Part shown: piece by piece, positions 1,533-49,224 of the stretch
Numbering within the stretch: the first letter of the stretch is position 1
How the letters are laid out: each line of letters opens with the position of its first letter
Source of the DNA: a virus
IMG/VR virus record: IMGVR_UViG_3300021964_000051
Coordinates: 1 to 64,000 of that record
DNA length: 64,000 nt
Reading direction: 5' to 3' (one strand)
Made by a program: the position numbers and the translations under genes
Notes under the pieces: generated by a model
Told to the model about the DNA's origin: nothing
Seen by the model: the letters and a program-made list of their open reading frames with translations, nothing else
Database searches by the model: none

Positions 1533-2026
1533 TGATGAAATTGGGGGATGCGATGCTTGAGTTAGCAACCATCGCCGCCGATTCTAAGGCATTTGATAAA
1601 TGGGTTCTTGAAAAGAGGGCGTGTTTAGATAAATCTTTGATTCCTAGATTTACAAAAGAATTGACTGGAATTAAAAAAATTCGCAAAAATAAAAAGTTTG
1701 CAGACCAATATAGGTTGCATTTAAGTCTCGTATTTATTTTCTTTTGGGAAGCAAGGGACGATTGGAGAGTTGAAAACTTTTGTTTTCAAGTCGCTCATGC
1801 AACAATTATGTTTATGCAACAAACTTCATTTCGTATGCCCGAAGAATTGAAGACAACACTAAATGACTTCAACTTCCTTGAAGTTTATTTAAATTGGGCA
1901 AACTCAGTATTAGAAGGAAATGATGAAAATGACATGGAAATTGATGACAAACTTATTGGAAGCGACGGATGGACGAACACCGACGATTCAGACAAAAATG
2001 ATTTTAAGGGAAATGGAGAATTTTGA
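1529..2026 (+). CDS. Hypothetical helical protein
   Basis: A 165-residue protein with a start ATG overlapping the preceding stop (ATGATGATG; any of three in-frame ATGs could be used) behind GAGGAAGAAG. It is predicted mostly alpha-helical, with a basic N-terminal half, an aromatic stretch (LVFIFFWEARDDW) too charged for a clear membrane helix, and a strongly acidic Asp/Asn-rich tail. The last 14 bases overlap the DNA ligase gene. I do not recognise the family. Confidence 0.55.
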   Translation: MMMKLGDAMLELATIAADSKAFDKWVLEKRACLDKSLIPRFTKELTGIKKIRKNKKFADQYRLHLSLVFIFFWEARDDWRVENFCFQVAHATIMFMQQTSFRMPEELKTTLNDFNFLEVYLNWANSVLEGNDENDMEIDDKLIGSDGWTNTDDSDKNDFKGNGEF

Positions 2027-11341: not shown

Positions 11342-12976
11342 ATGATAATTAGTAGATGTTTAGACAACCAAACCATTTATACTTCTTGGAGAGAAAACGG
11401 AGAAAAGAAAATCGCAGTTGAATTATTTCAACCGTATTTTTATATTCCGGAAAATGCACCAGAACCTTCTTCCTATAAAATTGGAAGAGCGGCCACCCGC
11501 CCCTTTTCTTATGAAAGGGGAGACTGGGTAAATCTCAATAAAGAAAAACTTAAGCGAGTTTATGTTGAACAATCAACAGATATTTATGCCGCTAAGAAAA
11601 TGTGGCCTAAAACATACGAAGCAGATGTTCCTTATCATTTCCGATATGCAGTTGATAAAATCAATGAAATGCCCGAATACGATATGAGAAAGTGGTATTG
11701 GGATATGGAATGGCAACAAGGTGGAGAACACCACGATAAAATTACTACTATTGTAATGTATGATAATTATGATAAAGAATACTATCAATGGGCTTGGTTT
11801 CCTAATTATGAAGGAGAAGAATATTTGTTCTTTGATAATGAAAAAGAAATGATTGAATCCTTTATTCGGGTTATGGTGGAAAAAGACCCCGATATGTTAA
11901 TTGCTTGGTTTGGTAACTTTGCAGATATTCCCGTTTTGCTCAAGCGATGTTGTGCGTTGGGAATTAACCCTTTGCAATTGTCACCTATCGGGCGAGTAGA
12001 GGGCATTAAAAAGACCTCTACGGGCTTTGAATACACTAAGGGGAATGAAGGGTTCTCATCTATTCAACAACCCATAGGGGGGCGCATAACCCTCAATTTA
12101 GACCATGCTTTTGAAAGACAATGGAATGATTCACAACGAGGAAGTTTGCCTTCTTTGGCTTTAGATTATGTTGCGTCTTTGTTGTTTGAAGAAGGAAAAC
12201 ACCATGAATCTAAATTCACCGACCCTAACGAATTTTATCGTAGGGCATGGTTGGAAGATACAAAGAATTATCTTGACTACGCATTAAAAGATGTGGAACT
12301 TTTGGTTAGAATTGATGAAAGTAACTTTTGTAGTGAAGCAATTATTTCACTTCAGCGATTACTAAAAGCCCCATTTGATGCCTGTTTCTTTGCTTCTCAT
12401 ATGGGTTCAATTTATTTTATGAGAAACGCTTGGTGGAAAGCACCAACAGGAAAGAAAGTTGAAAAAAGACAAGAATATGAAGGTGCTATGATTTACGACC
12501 CACTAAGCGAAGGAACCAATGGTTTGCACCTTAATGTAGCCGCTTTTGATTTTGCTGGTCTATATCCTTCAATGATGATTGCACGAAACATTTCTTGGGA
12601 GACAAAATCTGTTGAGCCAACTGAGTTTGGAGTTAATATTCTAACTCCTAGAGATTTCAGCGATGTTAAACATGAACAAGTGCTATATTACAAAACAGAC
12701 AAACTCGGCTTGTTGCCGAGAGCCGTTCTTGAGTTGAAGGAACTCCGCAACGAATATAAACGACTGATGCGAGAGGCGAGAGAAACGGACAATGGCGAAT
12801 ATGCGAAGTGGTATAACAATCAAATGGCTGTTAAGAGATTAATGGCTTCTTTCTATGGTATTGTTGCCTTTCAAGGATTCGGTTGGGCTGATGTTGATTT
12901 AGCCGCAAGTATCACGGCCAGCGCAAGAGAAGCAATTAGATTAGCCGCATTTGCAGCAAAGGAGATGGAAATATGA
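11342..12976 (+). CDS. polB1: DNA polymerase B, N-terminal part (exonuclease plus motifs A and B)
   Basis: A 544-residue large piece of the replicative polymerase. Exo I is WDMEW (Asp121, Glu123), Exo II GNFADIPVLL near 191-200, and Exo III NYLDYALKD near 309-317, so proofreading looks intact. Motif A is DFAGLYPSM near 403-411. Motif B is KRLMASFYG at 498-506, with Ala in place of the usual Asn. It ends after the helix following motif B at TGA 12974-12976. Motif C is missing and is found at the start of the gene at 13539. Both parts have their own start and ribosome binding site, so this appears to be a two-subunit enzyme rather than a frameshift. No intein motifs are at the ends. Confidence 0.93.
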   Translation: MIISRCLDNQTIYTSWRENGEKKIAVELFQPYFYIPENAPEPSSYKIGRAATRPFSYERGDWVNLNKEKLKRVYVEQSTDIYAAKKMWPKTYEADVPYHFRYAVDKINEMPEYDMRKWYWDMEWQQGGEHHDKITTIVMYDNYDKEYYQWAWFPNYEGEEYLFFDNEKEMIESFIRVMVEKDPDMLIAWFGNFADIPVLLKRCCALGINPLQLSPIGRVEGIKKTSTGFEYTKGNEGFSSIQQPIGGRITLNLDHAFERQWNDSQRGSLPSLALDYVASLLFEEGKHHESKFTDPNEFYRRAWLEDTKNYLDYALKDVELLVRIDESNFCSEAIISLQRLLKAPFDACFFASHMGSIYFMRNAWWKAPTGKKVEKRQEYEGAMIYDPLSEGTNGLHLNVAAFDFAGLYPSMMIARNISWETKSVEPTEFGVNILTPRDFSDVKHEQVLYYKTDKLGLLPRAVLELKELRNEYKRLMREARETDNGEYAKWYNNQMAVKRLMASFYGIVAFQGFGWADVDLAASITASAREAIRLAAFAAKEMEI

Positions 12977-13538: not shown

Positions 13539-14432
13539 ATGAAAGTAGTATATGGACACACAGATTCAATTTATGTGCAAATTGATTCTGTTGAAACTGC
13601 TGAATCTGCAATTAAGCAGATTGAGGCAAAAGTGCGAGAGCATTTTCCTAATGTAATGGGACTGGAAAATCATCCTGTTGTTCTTGAATTTGAGAAATAC
13701 TATTCTGCTTTGGGTGTTGGAACAACAAAGAACCGCAACGCTGGATTAGTTTCTTGGGAAGATGGAGAATGGTTAGATAAGCCAAAGTTTAGTATGACTG
13801 GTTTTACTGCAAAGCGTGTTAGTGAAACTAAATTAGCAAAAGAAGTGCAAACTAATACTCTTAAAATGTGGGTTGAACAAAAATCTTATGCAGAAATTAC
13901 TAAGTATTTGCATGAAACCTTTAGCGCAGTAAATAACGGTGAAATTCCTCTTGCTTCTATTATTAAGAGAAGTCGTCTAAGACAAAACAGATTTACTGTT
14001 AAATGCCCCGATTGTAACACTAAATATAATTTAAGAAACTGTTCTACTTTACCGCACAAAGTTTGCGAAAAGTGCGCTACACCAACGAAGCAATTCACCA
14101 CTCTTGAAGGAAAGAAACCTACTATTGGTTCAGGAATTGCTGGTGTTTTATACGCATGGGAAAAGAAAAACACTAATTTTGATGACTCTTATCTCTTCTT
14201 AAAAGTAAAGAGGGTAAATGATTTCTATACCCATCCTTTAACTCAAGAAAAGCGAGAAGTTGAATACTTATCAGGCATAACCTACGAGGATTTTGAGGGT
14301 TGTAGTCCCGATTGGGACTTCTATTCTCAACAGGTGGTTAAGAAGGCCGACCCTATTTTCAAGGCGATGGGGTGGGATATAGCGTCTATACGGACGGGAA
14401 AAATACAAGCAAGCCTTGACGAATGGTGGTGA
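13539..14432 (+). CDS. polB2: DNA polymerase B, C-terminal part (motif C, thumb with zinc finger, PIP box)
   Basis: A 297-residue small piece of the polymerase. It begins MKVVYGHTDSIYV, where YGHTDS is motif C (YxDTDS family) carrying a catalytic aspartate. A palm/thumb sequence follows. Between about 148 and 182 lies an insertion with CPDC and CEKC, a four-cysteine zinc finger inside the thumb region. The exact C-terminus QASLDEWW is a good PCNA-interacting box (Q-x-x-L-x-x-aromatic-aromatic). The ribosome binding site is GGGTGAT. Together with the N-part the enzyme has 841 residues, normal for archaeal PolB. The break lies in the loop before the motif C hairpin and seems to lose no conserved residue. 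Confidence 0.9.
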   Translation: MKVVYGHTDSIYVQIDSVETAESAIKQIEAKVREHFPNVMGLENHPVVLEFEKYYSALGVGTTKNRNAGLVSWEDGEWLDKPKFSMTGFTAKRVSETKLAKEVQTNTLKMWVEQKSYAEITKYLHETFSAVNNGEIPLASIIKRSRLRQNRFTVKCPDCNTKYNLRNCSTLPHKVCEKCATPTKQFTTLEGKKPTIGSGIAGVLYAWEKKNTNFDDSYLFLKVKRVNDFYTHPLTQEKREVEYLSGITYEDFEGCSPDWDFYSQQVVKKADPIFKAMGWDIASIRTGKIQASLDEWW

Positions 14433-34938: not shown

Positions 34939-36246
34939 TCAATCCAAGAAATAAACAAGGTCAGCCTTACCTTTAAGAATATCCATAGCCTCTTTACGAA
35001 GAATATCATATTTTTCCTTTGTAGAAATATTTCCACCAGATTCAGTAATCAACACGCTTTGGTCATCATGTCGGATAATTTCTGATGCGGCTAACTTCGT
35101 GGTGGCTTCGTGAATTGCAGAAGGAACTCTATTATTTCCAGCAATATAAGTCACAATAACAGAATTATTTCTATGATAAGGATAATCCTTTAGAAAGAAA
35201 ATACGGCCTTCTTCATTAATTGTCCAGTAATCTCCAAGACGGCGCATATCTTCTTTGTCAGTAAATGCAGTTAGTGTGCAAACTGTTGGTATTTGGTCTG
35301 TTGTAATAAATGTCGCTGTTCCCGACCCTGTATTTGTAGTGGCGGCAGACATAGTAACATTTGTTGAATCCACAATAGCAGTAATTGTTGTTCCACTAGG
35401 AATGTGATTGTTATTATCTTCAACTTCCATACCTACAACTAATTTAGACGAATCAGCCACAATGAGGTTAGTATCTCCGTTTGTATGTGTGATTGACTGT
35501 TTTATGGTGGCCTTTAGCACACAATCTGCCCCATCGTCTCCCGAAAGTAGGGATGAGAAGAGAATCTCCTTGCCGTTTGACTTGTTCTTTCCAGCATAGA
35601 AAAAGTCAGAAATTGATAATTGCGAAGAAGTGAGGCTCTTTGGTGCAGTTGCTCCTGTAAATTGAGACATAGTAGGAAAGGTTTCATTTACTAAAGAAAG
35701 GATTTCTTCATTGGTTGTCTTGATACCAAAGGTATTACAAAATTCATCGTTTCCTAAATTATTCAATGTGTTTTCTGCAGCCATTTCAAAAGATACTCCA
35801 CTATTCGGTAATTGAAGAATAATAGAATTTAAGTCTCTAAAATTATCTAGAAGAGTTAATTTTGCTTGAGCCGATGCAATTTCAATATATTGACTTCCCT
35901 GCCAGAGTTGTAGAGAAACAATCTTTCTTACTTTCATTTTTGATAATTGCACAAAACCAACATGACCGCCATAATATGCCTTGTGTGGGAGATGAGAAAA
36001 TTCAAAGTTATGATACTCGTCCTTCGTAATAATTGGACGGTATGAACGCTTTACCTTGTCGTCCACGATACCCTCCACCCGTTTGATAATTGACCCGATT
36101 TGAGCCAATGTGGGGTAGGTAGATACCGAAAAAGCGGGAACCTGTAATAGATTAGCAACCTCGGTAGCATTAGTATAATAGCCTCTCCCTTCGCTATAAT
36201 CTGGATTAATTTCCGTAAAGTCGCTAGGCGAGATTGTTTGACTCAT
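34939..36246 (-). CDS. Head-tail connector/adaptor protein with inserted beta domain
   Basis: 435 residues from ATG 36246. The N-terminal part (ATEVANLLQVPAFSV, SIIKRVEGIVDDKVKRSY) and the C-terminal part (IHEATTKLAASEIIRHDDQS, KEKYDILRKEAMDILKG) together resemble the helical gp6/gp15-type adaptor that docks under the portal. In the middle, about 245-320 is a Thr/Ser/Asn-rich beta insertion of Ig-like appearance (SKLVVGMEVEDNNNHIPSG, VTMSAATTNTGSGTATF). The insertion could decorate the neck. Confidence 0.6.
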   Translation of the reverse strand: MSQTISPSDFTEINPDYSEGRGYYTNATEVANLLQVPAFSVSTYPTLAQIGSIIKRVEGIVDDKVKRSYRPIITKDEYHNFEFSHLPHKAYYGGHVGFVQLSKMKVRKIVSLQLWQGSQYIEIASAQAKLTLLDNFRDLNSIILQLPNSGVSFEMAAENTLNNLGNDEFCNTFGIKTTNEEILSLVNETFPTMSQFTGATAPKSLTSSQLSISDFFYAGKNKSNGKEILFSSLLSGDDGADCVLKATIKQSITHTNGDTNLIVADSSKLVVGMEVEDNNNHIPSGTTITAIVDSTNVTMSAATTNTGSGTATFITTDQIPTVCTLTAFTDKEDMRRLGDYWTINEEGRIFFLKDYPYHRNNSVIVTYIAGNNRVPSAIHEATTKLAASEIIRHDDQSVLITESGGNISTKEKYDILRKEAMDILKGKADLVYFLD

Positions 36247-36248
36247 TT

Positions 36249-37991
36249 TCAAACACCAACGATTTTCTTTAATCTTCTAATGTTTTTCTTAAGTTTGTTA
36301 GTATGGGTCGCCATTTTTCTATTTTGTTTCATTCTAGCACCACTTAAGTTAAATTCACCATGTTTAATTAATTCAATGGTTAATTCAACAATAGCACCAG
36401 CAAATGCGTCTTGAATATCATCAACATAAATATTGTCTGATTTATATTTAATACCACCAAAATCAGTTGATTCTCTTGTTGAAAGACTTGGTTTAATTTT
36501 AGGATTTTCACGGTCGCCTTCTTTAATGTCATAAATTCTAATTTCTGATTTATAGTCTTTTTTATCTTTAGAAGAAAGTGCATTATAGGCATTTTCAGAA
36601 ATAAATACTTTATTAGAATAATTTTTCTTTTCATCATTTCCTAACTCAAAATATTCCGAAGCACTAATTTTATTTCCTGTTTTAAGATTAGTATATTCTT
36701 GTTCTTTTTCTGTTTTGTGACTATAAGCCCTCTTAGATTGATTCTTAATATCTTTAACTGATAATTCCTTACCCGATTCTGCATCAACTAATTTATCATC
36801 TTCTTCGCTTTGAACACCTAAAGCATATGTTTGATAAGACTGAAGTTTAGTAGCCTTAGTGTTAATTTTACCATATAACTTAACACTATAAACATTTTCA
36901 GGATTTTCTAAATGAGGTTTAACAATTCTCATAATTAATGCTTTATTATCTTCAATAAATTGTTCGGGACTACCTGCACCTTTAGGGAAAGTAACTCTTG
37001 CTTGTTTTAAATCATCAACATCTGTAAATTTAACATAATAGTATTTATCATTCAACCTAATAATGCTTTCTTCTCTCATAGTATCTGTCCTATCTAAAGC
37101 AGATAAGGCATTTGCTACATTAAATGAGTTAATCTCATCTTCAGGATTAGAAGTAAAAGAAATTCTTTTACCTACCTCAGTAAAAACCTCTTCTCCATCT
37201 TCTCCTTCACTAAGTTCTTGTTCAATAACATAATCATCTTTACCTTTACCTTTTAATTGAGAAATGACAGAATCAGGTATTTTAAAACTAAAATCAATAT
37301 TTTCTGTTGCGATTTTATATTTGCCCGAAGAAGGACTAAATCTAGTTTCTTGACCAGTCTGTTCTAAAATATAATCAGCCTTAGCATTTGCTAAACTGTC
37401 GGGGTCATAAACAGGAAATCTTGCTTCAATATGAGTGTCAAGACCGCTTTTATATTGCTTATGTCCATAAGTATAAACATCTGGTAATTTAGAGTGTTCT
37501 GTTAATATTAAATCGTATTCAACTTCAATTTCTTTTTCTTCATCTGCAAATGAGTCATCCCAATCGTCAAAATCAAATGGCGGTAAAGTGATTTTTCCTC
37601 CACGAATAAAAGAAACATCAGTTCCTTTTAATCTGCTTAGAACTTCAGAGTCTAAAAGGTCAGAAAGTTTTTTTCCTTCAATAAATTTCAAATTTATTTC
37701 ATTATCTGTTTTTCTGTCTCTTAGTTTAGAAAACATCTTCCAAGCATCTGAGTCTTTTTGTAATTCAGGAACAAGAGGTTCATTAAGAACTTTTTCAAGA
37801 ACAGAGTTCATTTCTTCTTTAAACTTATTTAGATTCACTTCACTATCTTCCACGCTTTCTTTTGCGATTCTTACCTTTGTTCGGAAATTTTTATCTCCGC
37901 TACTAATATAATCACGCATCTGTGTTATAAGAAAATTTTCTGACTTAGGAAGAGAAAGAGTTTGATTTCCCCATCTAAAACTAACAGACAT
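36249..37991 (-). CDS. Hypothetical structural protein, 580 residues
   Basis: Start ATG 37991 behind GAGGTG. Mixed alpha/beta with many charged segments; the last 60 residues are basic and helical (GARMKQNRKMATHTNKLKKN). The N-terminal SFRWGNQTLSLP may be a strand pair. There is a conserved-looking segment DNIYVDDIQDAFAGAIVELT near 515-535. It lies between the connector and the small Gln/Gly-rich protein. No enzymatic motif recognised. Probably a neck or minor head protein. Confidence 0.5.
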   Translation of the reverse strand: MSVSFRWGNQTLSLPKSENFLITQMRDYISSGDKNFRTKVRIAKESVEDSEVNLNKFKEEMNSVLEKVLNEPLVPELQKDSDAWKMFSKLRDRKTDNEINLKFIEGKKLSDLLDSEVLSRLKGTDVSFIRGGKITLPPFDFDDWDDSFADEEKEIEVEYDLILTEHSKLPDVYTYGHKQYKSGLDTHIEARFPVYDPDSLANAKADYILEQTGQETRFSPSSGKYKIATENIDFSFKIPDSVISQLKGKGKDDYVIEQELSEGEDGEEVFTEVGKRISFTSNPEDEINSFNVANALSALDRTDTMREESIIRLNDKYYYVKFTDVDDLKQARVTFPKGAGSPEQFIEDNKALIMRIVKPHLENPENVYSVKLYGKINTKATKLQSYQTYALGVQSEEDDKLVDAESGKELSVKDIKNQSKRAYSHKTEKEQEYTNLKTGNKISASEYFELGNDEKKNYSNKVFISENAYNALSSKDKKDYKSEIRIYDIKEGDRENPKIKPSLSTRESTDFGGIKYKSDNIYVDDIQDAFAGAIVELTIELIKHGEFNLSGARMKQNRKMATHTNKLKKNIRRLKKIVGV

Positions 37992-38001
37992 TAATTACAC
38001 C

Positions 38002-38652
38002 TCACATGAGCCACTTAGCCCAAGCCGCCCCTTTTTGAATAGCCGAACCCAAATGTAATCCGCTTGAAGGTGGCTCATAACTCATTTGACCTTGAGCATC
38101 AATCCAATATGGGCGACCATATCCGTCTGTTCCCGAAGGAGGAATAGGATAACCTGAACCATTATTCATAGCACCTTGCATTTGATTGTATTGCTGAGTA
38201 TTTCCAGTAGCATTGGCTAAAGCCATACCTGCTGATGGTTGTTGCATACCTCCACCATTAAAGCCTTGCGATTCAAGATATTGTTGTTTAGCCATTTTTC
38301 TTTGCATAACAACTTCACTATTGATAGCAGACTGTAATAATTTTTGAATATCTAAGTCAATATTTTCTTGAGTAATTCTCTCGTATTCACGAAGAGCATC
38401 CCTGTTGATAGTCATGCTTGTTCCGTTAGTCTCAAAACTTAACTTAGCCAACATTTGAGAAACTACTCTTTCTACTACATCTTCCATCATTTTTTCAAAA
38501 GCAGTTAAAAACATTTCACCATGATATTGGAAAAATTCTTCAACATGATTTTCTTGTAATGAAAGAAGATTATTAACTGTTTTAAAGTTATTATCATTTT
38601 GTGCCTGAACTGCACCTAAAACTGTGTTATTGCTGGTTCCTAGTAGTCCCAT
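38002..38652 (-). CDS. Hypothetical protein, helical then Gly/Gln/Pro-rich
   Basis: 216 residues, start ATG 38652 with AGGAGGAATAA. Residues 20-125 are helical and partly coiled coil (VEEFFQYHGEMFLTAFEKMM, ITQENIDLDIQKLLQSAI); residues 128-200 are low-complexity, rich in Gly, Gln, Asn and Pro (NGGGMQQPSAGMALANATGN). The tail GAAWAKWLM is hydrophobic. The layout suits a virion scaffold-like or neck component. Family unknown. Confidence 0.5.
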   Translation of the reverse strand: MGLLGTSNNTVLGAVQAQNDNNFKTVNNLLSLQENHVEEFFQYHGEMFLTAFEKMMEDVVERVVSQMLAKLSFETNGTSMTINRDALREYERITQENIDLDIQKLLQSAINSEVVMQRKMAKQQYLESQGFNGGGMQQPSAGMALANATGNTQQYNQMQGAMNNGSGYPIPPSGTDGYGRPYWIDAQGQMSYEPPSSGLHLGSAIQKGAAWAKWLM

Positions 38653-38654
38653 AT

Positions 38655-39314
38655 TTATTCCTCCTTACTTTTTTCTTCTTCGTTTTGGGCCTGAACATTG
38701 TTCTTAAGCATCAAATGATTTAATCTTTCGGTCATAAGGCTGATTTCAGTAATCAAACGAATTACTTCTTCGGTGGCCGTCTTTGTATCTGCTAGTGCGG
38801 GTGGGGTTATAAACCATCCTGCCGCAGTAAGGGTCATAACATCTTCTTTAGTTAAAGTCTTAATTGGGCCACTTTTAAGCACTTTAGGCATTCGTGGCTT
38901 AAAAGCACTAAACTCAAGACCGTGTTTATCAGCCAGTATTTGTTGTTGAAGCATTTCCATTTGCATATAGATTGAAGCGTGTTTAGGACAATAAGTTCCC
39001 ATTAATGGCCTTCCTTTAGTAACTCCATCTAAAGGCATAGGAGGACGCATATAATCTCCTTGTTCCCAAATGTGATGAAAACCACAGACAACGCAACGGT
39101 CTTTAAGATTAAACTTTTTTCCATATTTGATGCCTAAAAACTTCTTAGGTTCTGCCTTTAAAACCAATTTAAGTTCCTTTAATTGTGCCTTTGGTTTAAA
39201 TGAAATAAACTTGTATTCTTGCACAACACCGCTTGCTCTCGCCTGTTGTAGCGGAGATAGCGCAGGGTTAAATTGTGCTGGTGCGTTTTGTCCTATAATT
39301 TGTTGTTGATACAT
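38655..39314 (-). CDS. Zinc-ribbon-containing structural-region protein
   Basis: 219 residues, ATG 39314 behind GAGAGGAATAA. A central metal site is suggested by CVVCGFHHIW near 74-83 and YCPKH near 108-112 (two Cys plus Cys/His). The N-terminus is Gln/Ala/Pro-rich and the C-terminus is a charged helix ending KSKEE. Position between head-tail genes and the GTPase cassette. Role unknown. Confidence 0.5.
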   Translation of the reverse strand: MYQQQIIGQNAPAQFNPALSPLQQARASGVVQEYKFISFKPKAQLKELKLVLKAEPKKFLGIKYGKKFNLKDRCVVCGFHHIWEQGDYMRPPMPLDGVTKGRPLMGTYCPKHASIYMQMEMLQQQILADKHGLEFSAFKPRMPKVLKSGPIKTLTKEDVMTLTAAGWFITPPALADTKTATEEVIRLITEISLMTERLNHLMLKNNVQAQNEEEKSKEE

Positions 39315-39340: not shown

Positions 39341-40009
39341 TCAATAATCCTTTATCATTGTAGTAATTCCTCTATAAACCATTTCAGGGTCAGACTTTGC
39401 GGAAACAATATACTTGAAACAAGGTATTCCTTTATCATTTAACTTTCTCATTCCGTATTTAAATGGTTCAAAAATTTGGTGTTTATCAATAGATTGTCCT
39501 TCTTCTAATGGATATTTTTTTGCCCATATATCATATTTATTTGCCCAAATACCTACCGCCATTGGATAATCCGAGTCTCTTTTCTTTTTTCCGTTTGACC
39601 ATGTGCTTGAAATAATTGAATCTACTAAAAATTTCCATGCTAATTGGTGGTCTAAGTTTGCTTCACTATCTAAATGCCTGTGGTCAATCATAAAAATAAC
39701 ATATTTAACTCGTCTATTTTGCATATCTTTTTCCCATTCTTTCCAGTAAATTGCTTCTCCACCAATATCTGCGCTTCTTACTGTATGTGAGTCTCCATCA
39801 ATTTTGACATTCTTTCTCGTTGCTCTATGTCTCCCAACGGTTCTTTGTTGTATTTGTGGAACTTCTCCTCTCGTTCTTAATTGATGACTAAGTGTTGTTT
39901 TACCGACCATTGTTGCCCCATAAACTCCAAAGTTAATAGCGTGAACCTTTTTGTAAAAACCTAATAGTGCTTCTCCCACTAAAATAGCAAAGCCTGTCAT
40001 TAGGGACAT
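39341..40009 (-). CDS. Ras/Arf-like small GTPase
   Basis: 222 residues from ATG 40009 (AGGTGA upstream; GTG 40018 less likely). All GTPase motifs are visible: G1 GATMVGKTT at 31-39, G2 threonine in QRTVGRHRAT, G3 DIGGEAI at 81-87 (close to the DVGGQ of Arf), G4 NKYD at 157-160, G5 SAKSD at 203-207. A hydrophobic helix (residues 1-19, MTGFAILVGEALLGFY) precedes the G domain, reminiscent of the membrane-binding N-terminal helix of Arf. It lies in the late region beside nucleotidyltransferase-like and ART-like genes. A molecular switch carried by a virus is unusual; host-cell manipulation or virion assembly are possible roles. Confidence 0.8.
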   Translation of the reverse strand: MSLMTGFAILVGEALLGFYKKVHAINFGVYGATMVGKTTLSHQLRTRGEVPQIQQRTVGRHRATRKNVKIDGDSHTVRSADIGGEAIYWKEWEKDMQNRRVKYVIFMIDHRHLDSEANLDHQLAWKFLVDSIISSTWSNGKKKRDSDYPMAVGIWANKYDIWAKKYPLEEGQSIDKHQIFEPFKYGMRKLNDKGIPCFKYIVSAKSDPEMVYRGITTMIKDY

Positions 40010-40010
40010 T

Positions 40011-40304
40011 TTATTCACCTATAAATACATCTAATCCAATAAATTCTCCTTCTATTTTCTTTTCGTAGTTCCAAAAAAGTTCTCCGTTAAATTCATCTTC
40101 ATCGGCATATCTCATTTTCCAACCTAAATTGTTCAGTTTTCTATTTAATTCATCCCAATTCACATCTAATGGAAACAGTAAATCAATATCTTTTGGATTA
40201 TCCTTTTTTCCGACAGAACCAACAATTTTTGGTTTAAATTCCTTTAAATCATCAAGCAAAGAATTAGCAATAGAAACATAGTTTTTGAGTATGCTAAACC
40301 ACAT
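40011..40304 (-). CDS. Minimal nucleotidyltransferase-like protein with W-x-x-I-L-K tag
   Basis: 97 residues, ATG 40304. Starts MWFSILK. The core has IVGSVGKKDNPKDIDLLFPL: the G-S-x-G then D-x-D (DID) of the polymerase-beta superfamily, with a possible third acidic residue in GLDVFIGE at the end. MNT-type domains of this size modify small molecules, RNA or proteins, and occur in toxin-antitoxin and defence systems. The stop overlaps the GTPase leader. Its leader and first codons share a 21-base repeat with the next gene upstream. Confidence 0.6.
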   Translation of the reverse strand: MWFSILKNYVSIANSLLDDLKEFKPKIVGSVGKKDNPKDIDLLFPLDVNWDELNRKLNNLGWKMRYADEDEFNGELFWNYEKKIEGEFIGLDVFIGE

Positions 40305-40319
40305 ATCAATGCCCCCACC
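40299..40319 (-). repeat. Leader repeat, copy 1
   Basis: On the minus strand this reads GGTGGGGGCATTGATATG plus TGG: the Shine-Dalgarno, spacer, start codon and Trp2 codon of the nucleotidyltransferase-like gene. It matches the copy at 40949-40969 at 20 of 21 bases. Confidence 0.85.
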
Positions 40320-40954
40320 TAAAAATATTTATTTAACATCATTTCTAAATGTTTTATAGCATCTTCCATCTCATATTCTGTAATTCCTGCACTTCTTCTA
40401 AGATTTTCTTCATCTTTACTCGTTAAAGAATTATTTTTCATTCTTTGTAATAATTGTTTTCCTAATTCTGCTACTTTTGAATCTGGTAAATATTTATATT
40501 TGGGGGTATCAGGCATTCTTCTATCTATTTTGGAAGGGAATTCTTTCCCTCTTGGGGTAATGTTTCTTCTAGTGTCAATAAACATCCAATAAATCTTATC
40601 TTCCGTATCTTTATAATTAGCGTAGCCTTCATCCATTCGCATTGAAAAATCTTGGTCTGTTTTAAGAGCCTGTTTAATTGTGGGTTTTGCTTCATTTTTA
40701 TATGAGGATTTTTGTTCAGGAACGACCTGTGAACCGAAGAAAGCATAACATAAGGCTTCATCTAATCTAGGAGTCCAATGTAAAGTGCTATCTTCATACC
40801 TTCTATTTTCTGGTAAATTTGAAGTTTTTCCTTGTGCGCCTTGAAATAATTTATTAAATTTAAATCTCATGTCATACGGTTCGCTGTCAGTTTCTCCGGG
40901 ATTTACAATTTCTCCATGTATAACATATGGCTTTTTTAAAATATCCCACCACAT
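40319..40954 (-). CDS. Possible ADP-ribosyltransferase-like protein with W-x-x-I-L-K tag
   Basis: 211 residues, ATG 40954. Starts MWWDILKKPYVIHGE. The segment DSTLHWTPRLDEALCYAFFG resembles the S-x-x-H/S-W-T-x-x-x-x-x-A-x-x-Y-A element of ADP-ribosyltransferase-fold proteins, where a strand is followed by an Ala-rich helix. A matching catalytic Glu cannot be assigned with certainty. The C-terminal 60 residues are helical. It heads the cassette of nucleotidyltransferase-like and GTPase genes. The family call is tentative. Confidence 0.4.
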   Translation of the reverse strand: MWWDILKKPYVIHGEIVNPGETDSEPYDMRFKFNKLFQGAQGKTSNLPENRRYEDSTLHWTPRLDEALCYAFFGSQVVPEQKSSYKNEAKPTIKQALKTDQDFSMRMDEGYANYKDTEDKIYWMFIDTRRNITPRGKEFPSKIDRRMPDTPKYKYLPDSKVAELGKQLLQRMKNNSLTSKDEENLRRSAGITEYEMEDAIKHLEMMLNKYF

Positions 40955-40969
40955 ATTAATGCCCCCACC
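40949..40969 (-). repeat. Leader repeat, copy 2
   Basis: Minus strand GGTGGGGGCATTAATATG plus TGG, the ribosome binding site, start and Trp2 codon of the gene at 40319-40954, and also the end of the upstream membrane-protein gene. One base differs from copy 1. Confidence 0.85.
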
Positions 40970-41156
40970 CGTTTAACAAAGTGTCAAACAAGAAACCCAT
41001 GATGTTGATGTCAAAAACACCAAGGATGTTTCCAATAAGGAAACCCGAAAGACAAGCGCAACTGCCCCAAAACCATGCTCGCATTTTCAAAAAGAAAATA
41101 TCAGCAGAATGCGCTCTTTGTTGATTATAAGCATAATCCGAATCGGAAAAGCCCAT
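40956..41156 (-). CDS. Small membrane protein
   Basis: 66 residues from ATG 41156 with GGAGAT upstream; a GTG at 41174 is less likely. A polar N-terminus (DSDYAYNQQRAHSADI) is followed by a basic residue pair and one or two hydrophobic segments (WFWGSCACLSGFLIGNILGV, IMGFLFDTLL). Could be a virion membrane-interacting protein or holin-like. The end overlaps the leader repeat. Confidence 0.55.
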   Translation of the reverse strand: MGFSDSDYAYNQQRAHSADIFFLKMRAWFWGSCACLSGFLIGNILGVFDINIMGFLFDTLLNGWGH

Positions 41157-41186
41157 CAAATCTCCAAAGACCACTCAACCACCGCC

Positions 41187-41570
41187 TTATTGAAGGGCGG
41201 CTAAGAACTCATTTCCAACGCTATTTTCTTCTTCCTGTTGAATAGGTTGATAAAAAGTAGTATTGTATTGCTTTGCGCTTTCACGCATCTTTTGTCTTTG
41301 TTGTTCGTCCCTAGCCTTTCTTTCCCAGTATGCCGCAATTTTACGGTCTAAGAGCCAAAGTTCAATTTTGTCGTTAAGGGATAGGTCAAAAATAGCCTTC
41401 ATAACCATAATCGCACCAATCGTCCCTAAGCCAAATAGAACTGAATGCGCTAATGGGCCATATGGGAAACTCATGCCGAAAGCGGCATATGCCCAAACAT
41501 TTGTTCCGCTTAATGCACCAACAAATAAAATGGTCATAATTAGACGAGTATCTTGACTTAATGCAACCAT
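41187..41570 (-). CDS. Two-span membrane protein with charged tail
   Basis: 127 residues, ATG 41570 behind GGAGGC. Two hydrophobic segments, about 10-32 (LIMTILFVGALSGTNVWAYA) and 42-62 (HSVLFGLGTIGAIMVMKAIF), then a long helix rich in charge (RKIAAYWERKARDEQQRQKM) and an acidic tail. The holin-like size and topology are suggestive only; it is co-directional with capsid genes. Confidence 0.55.
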   Translation of the reverse strand: MVALSQDTRLIMTILFVGALSGTNVWAYAAFGMSFPYGPLAHSVLFGLGTIGAIMVMKAIFDLSLNDKIELWLLDRKIAAYWERKARDEQQRQKMRESAKQYNTTFYQPIQQEEENSVGNEFLAALQ

Positions 41571-42612: not shown

Positions 42613-43965
42613 TCAAAGGAGATTGGTAATCTTTCCTTGGCCCTTGAAGTAAGAACAACCAGTTTCAGCCATTGTGCGGTAAAGAGCCTTGTTTCCAAGA
42701 GAACCGACACCGAATGGGTTTCCGTTGCTGATACCATCTTCAAAGTATTGTGTAGGCTTCATCACAGATAGCCACAAATGGTCAGTATCAAGGAAAAGCA
42801 TATCACTAATCAAAGAACTGTTTGTTCCAGTAGAAGGCATAGCCGCAACAGGAATCAAAGGAATGTCGTAGTAAGTAGAAACACGGAAACCGACTTCTGC
42901 ACCCTTAACACCACGAACACCGTTCACAGTAGGAACGATTTCCTTTCTATCCATGAAACGCTCTTGAGCCTGAAGCAAGTCAGAAAGCGTTTGAAGAGTA
43001 TCATATCCCGTAAGAATGACCTTTGGCGAACCACCAGCAACACGGAGTCTGCGAACCATGTCGTTAATCACAGTAAGCGTCAATTGTCGTGCTTCTGCGG
43101 AAAGGTAGCCATCACCGAAAGAAATCTCGGAGTCTAAATACTCATTACCAGCCGCACTTCGGAGTTTTCCGTAAAGAGTGTCAATTTGTTGGTCAGTAGC
43201 CGTTCCAACAAGGTTTCCTCCAGCATTGTCAGCCAATTCATCAATTTCAGCAGAACTGCTCACAATCTTGTAAAGAGAAGTGTATGCTCTATCAATGGCG
43301 TTTGCCGTAGCATATGCCGTAGTCGGAGAATAGTTCTCCAAAGGCATAACAAGCATTTGATTCTGCACTTCAGCGTGATGCTTACCCATATCCTCTCTCA
43401 ATTGCGCTCTAATATCACCGATACCATCGTCAATTTGAGCCATTTCCATAGCCAATTCGCTGAAAGCAAATTGATGAGCGATGATTTTTGGACTGGTAAA
43501 GAGCGTATCATACTCAGGAGCAATTGAAATCAAACCATCCGTATTTGAATCAAGGCTGGCGTTTTCGGGAACACCACCAATTCGGTCAGCACGAAGGGCA
43601 TCAGCACCATAAAGTGAATCAGCGAGAGCCGTGTTAGAAGCGGCAGAAATGTCCAAAAAGTTTCCAGCACCACCAGCAGGTCGCTTTCTGAGGATTCTCC
43701 AACCACTTGACGAATAAGGACGCTTTGCGATAACAGACAATGCGTTGCATTCTCGGTTTAGCATAGACCAGACCTTTTGGCCGTAAATCTTGTTGTAAAG
43801 GTTTGCATTAATACCCGTTGGGTCGCTTAACGAACCATCGTGAGCGACATGAATACCGCTAACGGTTCCTGCCGCTTTAAGCAATTGGTTGCTAATATGA
43901 CCAGTTGCGCCCGTTCCGTAAGTTTGTGCTTCTAAATCTGCAATAGTGTTAATATATCCTACCAT
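42613..43965 (-). CDS. Major capsid protein (HK97 fold, probable)
   Basis: 450 residues, ATG 43965 behind AGGTGATTTAAG. The sequence is rich in Ala, Gly and Asn, starts without a long coiled delta domain, and has typical capsid features: KPYSSSGWRI-like entry region near 80, a long helix IGDIRAQLREDMGKHHAEVQ (spine-helix-like), the passage PKVILTGYDTLQTLSDLLQA, and FRVSTYYDIPLIPVAAMP near the P-domain end. It follows the protease and precedes decoration-like genes. Codons here are less A+T-rich than average, in line with high expression. Confidence 0.85.
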   Translation of the reverse strand: MVGYINTIADLEAQTYGTGATGHISNQLLKAAGTVSGIHVAHDGSLSDPTGINANLYNKIYGQKVWSMLNRECNALSVIAKRPYSSSGWRILRKRPAGGAGNFLDISAASNTALADSLYGADALRADRIGGVPENASLDSNTDGLISIAPEYDTLFTSPKIIAHQFAFSELAMEMAQIDDGIGDIRAQLREDMGKHHAEVQNQMLVMPLENYSPTTAYATANAIDRAYTSLYKIVSSSAEIDELADNAGGNLVGTATDQQIDTLYGKLRSAAGNEYLDSEISFGDGYLSAEARQLTLTVINDMVRRLRVAGGSPKVILTGYDTLQTLSDLLQAQERFMDRKEIVPTVNGVRGVKGAEVGFRVSTYYDIPLIPVAAMPSTGTNSSLISDMLFLDTDHLWLSVMKPTQYFEDGISNGNPFGVGSLGNKALYRTMAETGCSYFKGQGKITNLL

Positions 43966-43976
43966 CTTAAATCACC

Positions 43977-45146
43977 TCAAAGGTTTCCTCCAACCATTTT
44001 ATGAATGTCAGCCCAATCCATTTCGGCTAATTCTTCCATAGTAGGGAGTTTGATTTGGGCTTCTTCTTGAGCCTTAATGATGCTATCTCTTTCAGTCGTC
44101 AAAGACTTTCGGAGAGCAGTAAATTCCTGCTTAAGAGAAGCAATTTCGCTTTGTGCATCATATTGCGACTTAGCGAGAATGTGTTCTCTTGAAGAGGTTT
44201 CAGCATTGAAACGAGCCTCAAATTGCTTTTGGAGGTTATCGTAAGCCAATTTCTCCAATTGTTCTTGACGGAAAGCCTCGTAAGCCTTCTCAATGTTTCC
44301 AACGGACAAATCAAGAGTTTCTAATTCTTGGTTGTCAAATGCCTTAACAACGGGCAAATCCGATGCTCTTGGCTTTCCGTTGTCAATAACGACTCTATCG
44401 GCAGGTTCACCGATTTCAACGCCAGCACCGTCAAGGGTAGAAACATAAGCCTTTGCTTCGGAATCACCGTAGCCCATGCTTTCTTCATCTTCTTCCATCG
44501 GCATACCCTTTTCATCTGCGGGCATATCCATACTTTCCTCTTCTTCTTCTTTACGGAGCATATTCACTTCTTCCATCAAAGCGTCTAGTTCCGCTAATGC
44601 TTTTTCAATTTTGGTCATATTTTTCACCTTTTTATCTTGCTTTAAAATGTCAAATTTTGCTTCTGGATTAATTCCTTTTTCACAAATAGTGACTTCGTGT
44701 AATTCTAACTTTGAAATTTCATTGTATTGTCCAAATTCATCATTGGTTTTCTTTACTTTTTCTAAAGCCTGTCCTCCAATACTGAAACTTCTTAATGAAC
44801 CTTTTCTAATGCCTCGGTTAATTTCTTTGGCTTTTTCAATATCATCTCTTAACTTAATAACAACAAAGAATCCAACATCATCAACTTCAGTTTTCCATAT
44901 TCGTCCTGTTTTATCTCGGTATGATTCAACAACTTCCCCAACTTGAACATTTGAATGATTAGTCATTACATTTCTAAACTTGGGGTTCTCCATATATTTT
45001 TTAACAGCATCATTGAGTGCTTTAAGTGTAATTAAGTCATTTTGCTTATCAACGATTTCAATGCTTGCATATCCACCAATCATTAATTCGTCGCTTTTTA
45101 GAATCCTGAAATCTTGAGTTGTGTTTCTCATCACAGCAGAAGTCAT
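43977..45146 (-). CDS. Prohead protease fused to scaffold
   Basis: 389 residues, ATG 45146. N-terminal 170 residues are an S78-type serine protease: MTNHSNVQVGEVVES with His64, GSLRSFSIGGQ with Ser122, and LELHEVTICEKGINPEAKF with a third catalytic histidine. The C-terminal 210 residues are acidic, low-complexity and coiled coil (MEEVNMLRKEEEEESMDMP, EFTALRKSLTTERDS), fitting an internal scaffold. The last residues EMDWADIHKMVGGNL are nearly identical to the end of the protein at 48720. The capsid protein lacks a delta domain, so this fusion probably supplies scaffolding. Confidence 0.88.
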   Translation of the reverse strand: MTSAVMRNTTQDFRILKSDELMIGGYASIEIVDKQNDLITLKALNDAVKKYMENPKFRNVMTNHSNVQVGEVVESYRDKTGRIWKTEVDDVGFFVVIKLRDDIEKAKEINRGIRKGSLRSFSIGGQALEKVKKTNDEFGQYNEISKLELHEVTICEKGINPEAKFDILKQDKKVKNMTKIEKALAELDALMEEVNMLRKEEEEESMDMPADEKGMPMEEDEESMGYGDSEAKAYVSTLDGAGVEIGEPADRVVIDNGKPRASDLPVVKAFDNQELETLDLSVGNIEKAYEAFRQEQLEKLAYDNLQKQFEARFNAETSSREHILAKSQYDAQSEIASLKQEFTALRKSLTTERDSIIKAQEEAQIKLPTMEELAEMDWADIHKMVGGNL

Positions 45147-45190: not shown

Positions 45191-48181
45191 CTAATCCTCA
45201 ACAGGAAGGGGCAATTTGTTATACCTATCCTCATAAATATTCCACTTTCCTTCATCCCCGTCTTTATCAGCAGGTTTTTGTTTGAATCCTGTCCATGCTA
45301 ACCACATAGACTGTCCATCAACTTCAATGACTCTATAATGCATTTTAGTTTCAAATTTATTGCCTTCTAAGAAATATTCATGGTAGCCGTCCCTTTGAAT
45401 ACCTAGACGAATTTTACCAGAATCTATAAGTTTTCCCTTAGAAACAGTCTTTGCTACTTCTGCTGGATATTTACCAGCCGCACCGAATAAGTCAAACATC
45501 TCTTCTTCATTTTCAATGTTAATTGTCCAGAACATATTTTCTGTTTTAAGTTTAATTGCTAGAGTTAAATTATCATCTTCTCTAGCATAAATTTTAAATT
45601 CTCCTTCTCTTAATTCAGGAGGTGTTTTATATTCTCCTTCTACTGCTTTAATATCCTCTTTTAGCATAGCATATTTATCACTAAAACCAGAGTCTCCGTG
45701 AACGCATTTTTGATATTCTTCTAAGGCTCGTTTTAGTTCACCTATATCTACCCCATCTACGGTAGTATCAAAAAATTCTTCAACTACTTCCACTAATATT
45801 TCACATTTTAAAGTATCTACTGCATTATTCATGGCTTGCACTTCTGCCTCATAATTGTTTTCCCAATTATCCTCTTCAAATTCTTCTGGTCTTGACAAAA
45901 CATCTTCATATAGTTTTTCATAACTGCCATAATATCTAATATGAGCGTCTAGGGTTTGTTTTCTGTTTTGTTTAATGGCTTCCTTTAAATTGCGACAACA
46001 TTCATCATCTTCGTTTGTATCAATTTGAACTGCATCATCTTCTTCTGCTTCTTCAATGATTTCTTTAGTGCGAACCAATTCAGCCATTTTAGTTAAACTT
46101 TTTTTAATTTCCTCTTCCTGCATAATTTTATCATCATCAGCAGCAATTTTATTATCTTTTTCACTAATACCGTCTCTAAGGACAGCCCATTGTTTTAATT
46201 TCTTTTCACTAGAATCAAGAACTTCTTCATATAAGTCCTTATGTTTTTCTTTCAAAAAATTATGTAATTGTCTCGGAGTCTGTTCTCCATTTAATTTTAG
46301 GTGCTGAAACATAGCAACAGTTAATTCACTTTGTTTAGTTTTCATAATGTCCAATGCCTGTTGCTTCCACATATCTAAATCCATAGTAGCGTTCTTAGAC
46401 ATTAAATTATTTTCTTCATATCCATAAATAGTAAATCCATCTAAATCATATTTTATGATTACATTTGCTTCTCCGTGAATATGGTCTGTAATTTTAATAC
46501 CTTTCTTAAATGCTTCAACATTATAGTTTAAAGATTTTTTGGTGTCTTGAGACAATAATTCCAAAGTGACTAATTTATCGGGATGTTCAACTTCAGGAAC
46601 TTCAATTACTTTAGCAGAAAATAAACTATACCCTTCTCCTTTCTTTTTAACTTCATCCACTTTAACTCGGATAATATCTCCAATATCAACAGAAATTTTA
46701 GTATTTAAAGCCCTACCTACATTTAAGTATTGTCTTTTATTAACATCAACTGTTCCTTCCATTTCTTCTGTGATTGGCCCAACACCAACACTATAAGAAT
46801 AAAGATTACTCTTGGTCTTTTTCTTGTCAAGAACAATAACATCTAAATCAACAAACTTTTTCCATTTAATCCACTTAGGATTTTTCTTTGTTCCGATATA
46901 ATAAGTTGAAGTAGAGTCTTTAATAACTACTCCCTCAGAAGCAGGGTTTTCCATAATTTCTTTTGAATACTTTTCAATATCCTTTAAGTTATCTGCTTGT
47001 CTTGTATCTTTCTTTGATGGGAAAGCAATCACTTCATTTGTTTTTGAAGAATAATTGTTGAATAATATAGTCATTCTATTTTCTAATTCCTCATCAGCGA
47101 GAGTTTGAGATTCATGTCGTATAATATCAAAGACATGACAACGCAGTTTTGCATCTTTGTATTTTCCTTTGAAAACATGAGCGATAGTATCTGCTCTATG
47201 CAAGGGTTCACCTTCATCATCAAATAGAACTAATTCACCATCTAAAATACAATCACCATATTCTTTCTTTTTAAGTTCCTCAACTTGTTCTTTACATTTC
47301 TTAGTAATGTCTTTTTCATTATAAGAATATATTGTAACTTTGTCATCAATTTTATGTAATTGAACTCTCATACCATCATATTTTTCTTGAACATACCAAT
47401 TTCCACTAAAGCCTTTTAATTCATTAATGTCATCTATTTCAAATATTCTATACATGGGTTTATTGGGAACAATAAATTGTGAAATTGATTTTTTCTCATC
47501 ACTTGGAACAGACTTAGAAAGACCTTCAATATCAATTAATTCTTCCCATTCTTTTTGTTCTTTCTTAGAAAAGAAAATTAGTTCTAACATATCCATAGCA
47601 GCCTTTACTTTAGATTCAACTTTCTTTGAGTCTTTTCCATCCCCGTAATGCTCAATAATATAGAGGGCTACATCGTCTGATTCTAGGTCAAGTCCGATAA
47701 GACCCTCCGTAATTGTGTCGGGGGTCATGCCTTTAACCTCATAAATGTCATCAGATAGTGCTTTATTGTTGTCTCTTATTGCATAATGCACAAACTTAAC
47801 CATAGATTCGGGATTATCTAACAATTCTTCAAGAACACCATCCTTGAACATGGAGGCGAAGGGGTCGTCCACAATGGACGAAGAATAACGAAGAAGTTTA
47901 ATATTTTCAAACAGTTCTTTAGCCTGTCTTGAAGTAGGGTCTTTAGTGTCCTTATCTTCTAAATTTTTTTCATCAATAAAGTTCCGCATTTCTTTTCCTG
48001 CGGCATCTGTTTCATTATATGATTCAATGATAGTATCAACTGCTTTACGCCAACGACCACTATACTCATTAGGGTCTTGCTTTGCAGATAAATAGGCTAC
48101 TCTTGTCTTTTCAAATAGACGAAGAATTTCTTGAGAAGGTTGTTTATCCTTCTCAATAGAAGCCAACTTCATACTAATCAT
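45191..48181 (-). CDS. Large second ATP-dependent DNA ligase with extra domains
   Basis: 996 residues in the late block. Nucleotidyltransferase motifs: I EKYDGMR with Lys267, III LDGELVLF at 313-320, IIIa HVFDII at 349-354, IV SEGVVIKD at 415-422, V WIKWKKF near 437-443, then an OB-fold (YLNVGRALNTKISVDIGDII). The N-terminal 240 residues are helical. After the ligase core come a helical basic-acidic region, a Cys pair (DDECCRNLKEA), and a C-terminal domain with LRLGIQRDGYHEYFLEG-type text (IRLGIQRDGYHEYFLEG) and MWLAWTGFKQKP, which resembles phosphoesterase-like or accessory domains of LigD and phage ligases. Its location between scaffold and portal hints at a virion-packaged repair enzyme. 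Confidence 0.8.
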   Translation of the reverse strand: MISMKLASIEKDKQPSQEILRLFEKTRVAYLSAKQDPNEYSGRWRKAVDTIIESYNETDAAGKEMRNFIDEKNLEDKDTKDPTSRQAKELFENIKLLRYSSSIVDDPFASMFKDGVLEELLDNPESMVKFVHYAIRDNNKALSDDIYEVKGMTPDTITEGLIGLDLESDDVALYIIEHYGDGKDSKKVESKVKAAMDMLELIFFSKKEQKEWEELIDIEGLSKSVPSDEKKSISQFIVPNKPMYRIFEIDDINELKGFSGNWYVQEKYDGMRVQLHKIDDKVTIYSYNEKDITKKCKEQVEELKKKEYGDCILDGELVLFDDEGEPLHRADTIAHVFKGKYKDAKLRCHVFDIIRHESQTLADEELENRMTILFNNYSSKTNEVIAFPSKKDTRQADNLKDIEKYSKEIMENPASEGVVIKDSTSTYYIGTKKNPKWIKWKKFVDLDVIVLDKKKTKSNLYSYSVGVGPITEEMEGTVDVNKRQYLNVGRALNTKISVDIGDIIRVKVDEVKKKGEGYSLFSAKVIEVPEVEHPDKLVTLELLSQDTKKSLNYNVEAFKKGIKITDHIHGEANVIIKYDLDGFTIYGYEENNLMSKNATMDLDMWKQQALDIMKTKQSELTVAMFQHLKLNGEQTPRQLHNFLKEKHKDLYEEVLDSSEKKLKQWAVLRDGISEKDNKIAADDDKIMQEEEIKKSLTKMAELVRTKEIIEEAEEDDAVQIDTNEDDECCRNLKEAIKQNRKQTLDAHIRYYGSYEKLYEDVLSRPEEFEEDNWENNYEAEVQAMNNAVDTLKCEILVEVVEEFFDTTVDGVDIGELKRALEEYQKCVHGDSGFSDKYAMLKEDIKAVEGEYKTPPELREGEFKIYAREDDNLTLAIKLKTENMFWTINIENEEEMFDLFGAAGKYPAEVAKTVSKGKLIDSGKIRLGIQRDGYHEYFLEGNKFETKMHYRVIEVDGQSMWLAWTGFKQKPADKDGDEGKWNIYEDRYNKLPLPVED

Positions 48182-48719: not shown

Positions 48720-48965
48720 TCACTCCATCTTTGAAACCATTTTATGAATATCAGACCAATCCATGCTAGAAACATCGGTAGTGGGTAATGAATCAAAACC
48801 ACCAACAGTATTATCCATAGCAGGTGTTGGACTTTGTGAAACAACAAGACCCGCCTTCATCAAAAGACTGTCTTTTGCGTAGATTGTCTTTTCTAATGCT
48901 TCAACCTTTGCGGTCAAAGCCTTGATAATTTCTAAAACATCTTTGTTAATACTTTCTTCTGTCAT
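48720..48965 (-). CDS. Small protein with scaffold-like C-terminal motif
   Basis: 81 residues from ATG 48965; a longer reading from 49043 would overlap the previous gene. Residues 8-40 are a coiled coil (VLEIIKALTAKVEALEKTIY). The end reads SLPTTDVSSMDWSDIHKMVSKME. The protease-scaffold ends with LPTMEELAEMDWADIHKMVGGNL, so MDW-x-DIHKMV is shared, with the same LPT about ten residues before. A second, protease-free scaffold piece or a competitor for the same partner is likely. Confidence 0.65.
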   Translation of the reverse strand: MTEESINKDVLEIIKALTAKVEALEKTIYAKDSLLMKAGLVVSQSPTPAMDNTVGGFDSLPTTDVSSMDWSDIHKMVSKME

Positions 48966-48969
48966 AATA

Positions 48970-49224
48970 TCACATTCCAAATTTAGCCTTGCACCTGTCT
49001 CTTTCTTCCATATATTCTTTTTCAGACATTCCGCCCATTCCAAATTTCTTATTCAAACGGTCTATACAGGCAAGATAACTTTGAGAATCTAAAGTGCTTC
49101 CCCTCATGGGCTTTCTTCTACTTCCGCCTCTAAATCCTGCTGAACTCAGTCCTCTTCCTTTTGATACTTCATTACAGTCATCACAACCGCAACCATGTGC
49201 CTTTAATATATTTTTCCAACTCAT
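48970..49224 (-). CDS. Cys-rich protein with W-x-x-I-L-K tag
   Basis: 84 residues, ATG 49224. Starts MSWKNILKAHGCGCDDC; the cysteine cluster CGCDDC may bind metal. A Gly/Arg/Ser-rich linker (GFRGGSRRKPMRGS) leads to a helix with two cysteines (LACIDRLNKKFGMGGM, DRCKAKFGM), where KFGM is repeated. One of several late proteins with the same N-terminal tag. Confidence 0.6.
   Translation of the reverse strand: MSWKNILKAHGCGCDDCNEVSKGRGLSSAGFRGGSRRKPMRGSTLDSQSYLACIDRLNKKFGMGGMSEKEYMEERDRCKAKFGM

Follow-up and report, generated by a model that had tools for sequence, protein, structure and literature searches.

Background

What does a Ras/Arf-type small GTPase do among the virion genes of an apparently archaeal tailed virus, and to which branch of the GTPases does it belong? 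The question is raised by the gene at 39341..40009 (- strand) of the window, by which we mean the whole 64,000-nt stretch of DNA analysed here, taken from a viral contig of 65.8 kb (IMG/VR record IMGVR_UViG_3300021964_000051). One would not expect a slow-evolving, never-missing GTPase of this type among head genes; giant eukaryotic viruses are where small GTPase switches have been described.

Judged by the genes it carries, the window appears to come from a magrovirus-type archaeal tailed virus. It encodes a family B DNA polymerase split in two (11342-12976 and 13539-14432), an RFC small subunit, an ERCC4 nuclease and ATP-dependent DNA ligases, together with a virion set of terminase, HK97-type capsid protein and prohead protease, and the replication and virion genes lie on opposite strands. 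Published descriptions of magroviruses agree with both this gene set and the strand layout (PMC10768690, PMC12999244). By analogy with magroviruses, the host would be a member of the Poseidoniales. One polymerase gene encodes the N-terminal part and the other the C-terminal part, and small ORFs separate the two, a layout like that drawn for the Aoguangviridae. The two ligase genes differ from each other; one lies at 1920-3455 (+), and the other (45191-48181, -; 996 aa) adjoins the prohead protease inside the virion gene block. To our knowledge, magroviruses have no cultured member. They are perhaps third in abundance among the viruses of marine plankton, behind cyanophages and pelagiphages (PMC10160649).

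Results

The gene and its G motifs

The ORF is real, judging by its sequence. It is listed at 39341-40018 with a GTG start at 40018, and an alternative ATG at 40009 gives a protein of 222 aa. The ATG is the better start because a putative ribosome-binding site, GGTGA (40015..40019, -), lies 5 nt ahead of it and most relatives begin at a matching M-S-x-[ML]; the same evidence favors the 5' end of 40009 that an earlier, sequence-only reading of this DNA had adopted.

Five G motifs are readable on the - strand (residue numbers are counted from the GTG start), and the pattern given for each holds in 204 of 204 distinct relatives. They are the P-loop or G1, GATMVGKTT (residues 34-42, 39893..39919; G[AS][TS].[VA]GKTT in relatives); switch I or G2, RTVG with Thr60 (residues 59-62, 39833..39844; RT.G); switch II or G3, DIGGE (residues 84-88, 39755..39769; D.GG[EQ]); the guanine-specificity motif G4, NKYD (residues 160-163, 39530..39541; NK.D); and G5, SAK (residues 206-208, 39395..39403). 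Equally invariant (204/204) is Trp95 (39734..39736), which lies 11 residues past the G3 Asp, as it does in Arf, Sar1 and G-alpha. Conservation to this extent is far beyond chance. The sequence-only reading had quoted all of these motifs except RTVG, and had made its case depend on the switch motifs being kept in relatives, as they are throughout.

The combination of NKxD and SAK selects guanine. At the position equivalent to the catalytic Gln61 of Ras, 197 of the 204 relatives have Glu (D.GGE) and 7 have Gln (D.GGQ). Accounts of Ras Q61E conflict, with slower hydrolysis in one (PMC6813200) and increased activity cited in another (PMC2987813), so the Gln-to-Glu change leaves the hydrolysis rate of the viral protein open.

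Predicted fold and family placement

The protein was modeled with AlphaFold (AF2) from a 61-sequence alignment, reaching pLDDT 76.5 and pTM 0.76; this alignment was used instead of one of 30 near-identical sequences, which gave a pLDDT of only 58. The model has an N-terminal helix (residues 3-25) followed by the alternating order of a small GTPase. Foldseek comparison with the PDB returned Rab33, Rab1, Rab5, Ras, Arl8b and G-alpha (E to 4.7e-9, target TM to 0.71), and every match listed was a small GTPase or G-alpha.

Sequence profiles gave weaker matches of the same kind. Leaving aside Pfam families that only a few members matched, those found were all GTPase families (MMR_HSR1, Roc, SRPRB, Ras, G-alpha, GTP_EFTU and Arf), each under the curated cut-off in the members with scores shown. 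The window protein scored 20.3 bits for MMR_HSR1 (cut-off 21.9) and 22.8 bits for TIGR00231 (small_GTP, the sole NCBIfam match; cut-off 42.5). The best Arf score seen (PF00025, gathering score 22.3) was the 20.9 bits of relative L390 (E 2.6e-4), and L384, which has DIGGQ, matched this family with E 1.9e-3. SRbeta (PF09439) matched weakly in 48 of 61 members, with a best E of 4.7e-4 and, for L390, 18.8 bits against a cut-off of 25. Because profile searches of the PDB were non-significant (0.02-0.06), sequence does not settle the subfamily; the top phmmer match in the PDB, SAR1b, was likewise non-significant (E 0.13). The nearest solved structure varies by query among SAR1b, Rab33, Ras and 8OUN, the last being a 'GTP-binding protein' that L390 matches with E 0.013 and that is probably an Asgard ArfR.

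The sequence-only reading had called small GTPases of this type rare in viruses of prokaryotes, and the searches accord with it: among 50 Foldseek matches listed from predicted viral structures, all those named belong to giant eukaryotic viruses, none of the small-GTPase families of PHROG matches (weak matches to guanylate kinase and Sak4 were returned), and tblastn against INPHARED, which appears to be without magroviruses, gave no match. A search of a defence-system library returned nothing relevant. The magrovirus literature searched mentions no small GTPase; Philosof 2017 and Prabhu 2025 lay outside that search and may annotate one. Among the genome contigs searched, a single one matched, L156 (NZMJ01000024.1, labelled Maricaulis sp. 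in GTDB), and was rejected as a source of a cellular homologue, since the complete head operon of the virus is present on it and marks it as a magrovirus contig placed in the wrong bin.

Taken together, sequence and predicted fold firmly identify the protein as a Ras-superfamily (TRAFAC) small GTPase in the broad sense. Pfam, NCBIfam, the AlphaFold model and Foldseek agree with the Ras/Arf-type assignment made previously, and the contrary outcome named with it, a non-GTPase P-loop family, is not borne out; such a family was rejected on G4, G5 and the predicted fold. DxGG and the later Trp point toward the Arf/SRbeta/G-alpha side. No named family fits, because the Arf and SRbeta cut-offs are missed, the WDxGGQ and amphipathic helix of Arf are absent, and the nearest structures depend on the query.

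The N-terminal helix

The helix modeled at residues 3-25 (39944..40009, -) is hydrophobic, and its G9, F10 and E16 are invariant. Over 61 relatives, the N-terminal 18-mer has a mean hydrophobicity of 0.68 and a moment of 0.19, against 0.47/0.44 for an Arf1 reference peptide and 0.55/0.40 for a Sar1b one, both entered by hand. High hydrophobicity and low moment make it resemble a hydrophobic anchor rather than an Arf-type amphipathic helix. The median KD peak is 1.66, over a stretch of only ~17 residues; because a membrane span would usually be longer and the stretch encloses an invariant Glu, the helix may pack against protein. Among the genes compared in the block, only the GTPase and its 127-aa and 72-aa neighbors have a median hydrophobic peak above 1.6, transmembrane calls being made throughout from hydropathy. 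The description of the helix as Arf-like in the sequence-only reading thus holds for its position but not for its character, which is hydrophobic and not amphipathic, with Ser at position 2 in place of the Gly used for myristoylation.

Occurrence and evolutionary constraint

The count that needs no prior find of the GTPase is the one anchored on the capsid gene. This census comprised 156 loci from two capsid scans (the seed of the second came from a GTPase-positive locus) that reach down to ~57% capsid identity, and the GTPase was present in 98 of 98 loci with at least 4 kb downstream. It was also present in all 19 loci reached via the 127-aa membrane protein. That scan revealed a second set of more divergent loci, in which the GTPase is 59-68% identical to that of the window and the capsid protein ~57%; gene order is kept in this set, and the capsid gene was found in 75/75. 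Each of 30 records of 84-102 kb holds exactly one GTPase copy, a result that speaks to copy number only, because the records were chosen among GTPase-positive loci. Record IMGVR_UViG_3300021958_000021 (184.7 kb; loci L002 and L067) has two capsid genes and two GTPases, 83% and 100% identical to that of the window, and is probably an assembly artefact that joins two magrovirus genomes.

Measured against the window copy, the GTPase has a median dN of 0.119, the lowest of seven head-module genes compared (capsid 0.279, protease 0.167, the other four 0.174-0.297). Its median dN/dS is 0.084, and only the 127-aa membrane protein is lower (0.062, from fewer pairs). Distances of GTPase and capsid are correlated (r = 0.71, 90 loci), which is consistent with mostly vertical inheritance. 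Vertical descent as a core gene of the group is the likeliest history of the GTPase, rather than recent capture from a host. From the sequences compared, it is a core head-operon gene, on the same strand and in the same position in all sampled related loci.

The head operon

On the coding strand, the order is prohead protease, major capsid protein, small decoration-type genes, 127-aa protein, 72-aa protein, GTPase, 219-aa Cys/His protein, 216-aa protein, adaptor-like gene and tail genes. Neighbors were counted in a first set of 274 loci and in the second, more distant set, with each gene scored where the flank suffices; counts are given below in that order, and all coordinates refer to the - strand. 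Normally the gene directly upstream of the GTPase, at median gaps of 12 and 16 nt in the two sets, encodes a small membrane protein of 72 aa with a hydrophobic peak (40956..41174; 265/265 and 83/83). Before it lies the 127-aa membrane protein, with two predicted TM helices, a charged tail and a median of 2 hydrophobic peaks (41187..41570; 263/263 and 81/81). Downstream are the 219-aa protein, whose Cys/His pairs (CVVC...C..H) look zinc-ribbon-like by eye (38655..39314; 236/236 and 74/74), and a conserved soluble protein of 216 aa (38002..38652; 223/223 and 67/67), which is probably virion-associated and weakly matches a virion structural PHROG (E 0.014). The major capsid protein that anchors the census (42613..43965) matches phrog_24667 with E 3e-18 and resembles the major capsid proteins of HCTV-1 and HVTV-1. 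A conserved gene at 34939..36252 (178/178 and 48/48) is taken as the head-tail adaptor from its position and its resemblance to HVTV-1 gp125.

Fewer than 60 nt separate the 72-aa gene from the GTPase in 344 of 379 loci. This slot (40011-40954 in the window) is cargo-like and is filled in 35/379. The window has two occasional inserts there, one of 97 aa that starts MWFSILK (40011..40304; 11/271 loci) and one of 211 aa that starts MWWDILK (40319..40954; a similar protein in 22/266 loci). Where the ORF of an insert was recovered, the window included, its start is nearly always MW..[IV]LK.

Many small late proteins of these viruses open with the same kind of terminal peptide, M(x0-3)W..I[LI]K; across 5820 non-redundant locus ORFs it lies in the first 25 aa in 195 and internally in only 1. 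In the window it occurs at the N-termini at 40304, 40954, 49224, ~51800, ~54030 and 54577 (-), and a related MDW[AS]DIHKMV ends the prohead protease and the 107-aa protein (C-termini of 43977-45146 and 48720-49043). The peptide may be a capsid- or scaffold-targeting tag, similar in concept to the T4 capsid targeting sequence.

Discussion

A fixed, always-present GTPase suggests an essential, GTP-controlled and probably membrane-bound step late in infection. With a probability of roughly 0.5, we read the protein, from its sequence and predicted structure, as a membrane-anchored GTP switch that would act in a late step, assembly or release, together with the two adjacent membrane proteins. It would be made late, alongside the virion proteins, and held on the host cytoplasmic membrane by its N-terminal helix, where it may pair with both membrane-protein neighbors through the invariant Glu16. 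Cycling between GTP and GDP would then time or drive one late step, most likely either virion assembly at the membrane or the opening or remodeling of the membrane for release, between which we state no preference. No GAP, GEF or effector was identified for the GTPase. Known phages exit by holins and endolysins. It is doubtful, but conceivable, that the GTPase and the two membrane proteins form a GTP-powered exit or assembly machine of tailed archaeal viruses, one without counterpart among known phages that evolved in the slot held by a single membrane protein in haloviruses.

The alternative that survives best, though we consider it somewhat unlikely, is a soluble GTPase of virion assembly, whose helix docks on a head, portal or neck protein and whose hydrolysis is a checkpoint or chaperone step, or which is itself built into the virion. 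Such a protein would suit a gene that sits between those for capsid and adaptor and invariably has downstream of it two conserved genes for soluble proteins, of which one is weakly virion-like, and it would suit a helix with an invariant Glu16; it suits less well the invariant upstream neighbors, which are membrane proteins, and a helix that is TM-like in both hydrophobicity and moment. We also know of no tailed phage that employs a GTPase factor of this sort.

Quite unlikely is a host-directed effector that subverts the GTPase signaling or membrane traffic of the host, in line with the action on host membranes that the sequence-only reading had offered as one possibility. Regulation of cell membranes is a classic role of small GTPases, but host-interaction genes are usually variable and accessory, whereas this GTPase is among the slowest-evolving genes, never missing and with a constant place in the head operon; it is the adjoining MW..[IV]LK inserts that are variable and accessory-like. 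The possibility draws some support from Asgard ArfRs, which indicate that an Arf-like protein of archaea can act as a switch associated with membranes (PMC12554972). The earlier placement of the gene among possible effectors gives way to one within the head/virion operon, where it is invariably present, and this universality and position rule out an accessory effector. Very improbable is a P-loop protein that has lost its GTPase function, or is an ATPase or nucleotide kinase, since the sub-threshold family scores, the weak guanylate kinase and Sak4 matches and the catalytic Glu that speak for it are set against guanine-selecting NKxD and SAK in 204/204 relatives, a catalytic position that alternates between Glu and Gln, and listed fold matches that are all small GTPases or G-alpha.

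The GTPase and its neighbors make a concrete five-gene cassette for expression and testing, and the family adds a viral branch to be placed when archaeal Arf-like GTPases are traced.

Comparison with known systems

With Arf/Sar1 (PF00025) and Asgard ArfR, the viral GTPase shares DxGG[E/Q] with a Trp 11 residues on, a TxG switch I and a helix before strand 1, and Arf/Sar1 gives the best family score for some viral relatives, although below the cut-off in the members shown. The Arf consensus has a W before DxGG and a GLDxAGKT P-loop (PMC2237903), both of which the viral GTPase lacks; switch II is WDxGGQ in Arf but ADIGGE in the window protein, with Ala for the Trp and with Gln at the last position in 7/204 relatives. 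The Arf helix is amphipathic with a myristoylated Gly2, whereas the viral helix is hydrophobic with Ser2. SRbeta, the beta subunit of the SRP receptor, shares DxGG and has its GTPase domain behind a hydrophobic N-terminal anchor, to which the viral N-terminal helix may correspond, but the viral GTPase shows no SRalpha-like partner, and the members with scores shown do not reach the SRbeta cut-off.

The Ras/Rab GTPases of giant eukaryotic viruses (pithoviruses, Tupanvirus, Klosneuvirus, Edafosvirus) are also virus-encoded and are the top viral structural matches listed (E 2e-8), but they belong to another viral realm and host domain and have 10-20% identity to the magrovirus GTPase. We know of no giant-virus GTPase with an N-terminal-helix/head-operon arrangement, and the two groups most likely represent independent acquisitions. 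The Rab of Mimivirus has been discussed elsewhere (PMC4569851).

HVTV-1 gp124 and HCTV-1 gp116 (Druskaviridae) occupy the same slot, between the capsid/decoration genes and the adaptor, and have one hydrophobic N-terminal helix, but they are 109-110 aa long and without a P-loop or GTPase domain. A one-helix membrane protein in this slot also favors a membrane link for the GTPase. A search of the head regions of these two viruses found no GTPase homologue. Because the slot in these related haloviruses holds a one-helix membrane protein and no GTPase, the GTPase looks as if it was either gained by the magroviruses or lost from the haloviruses.
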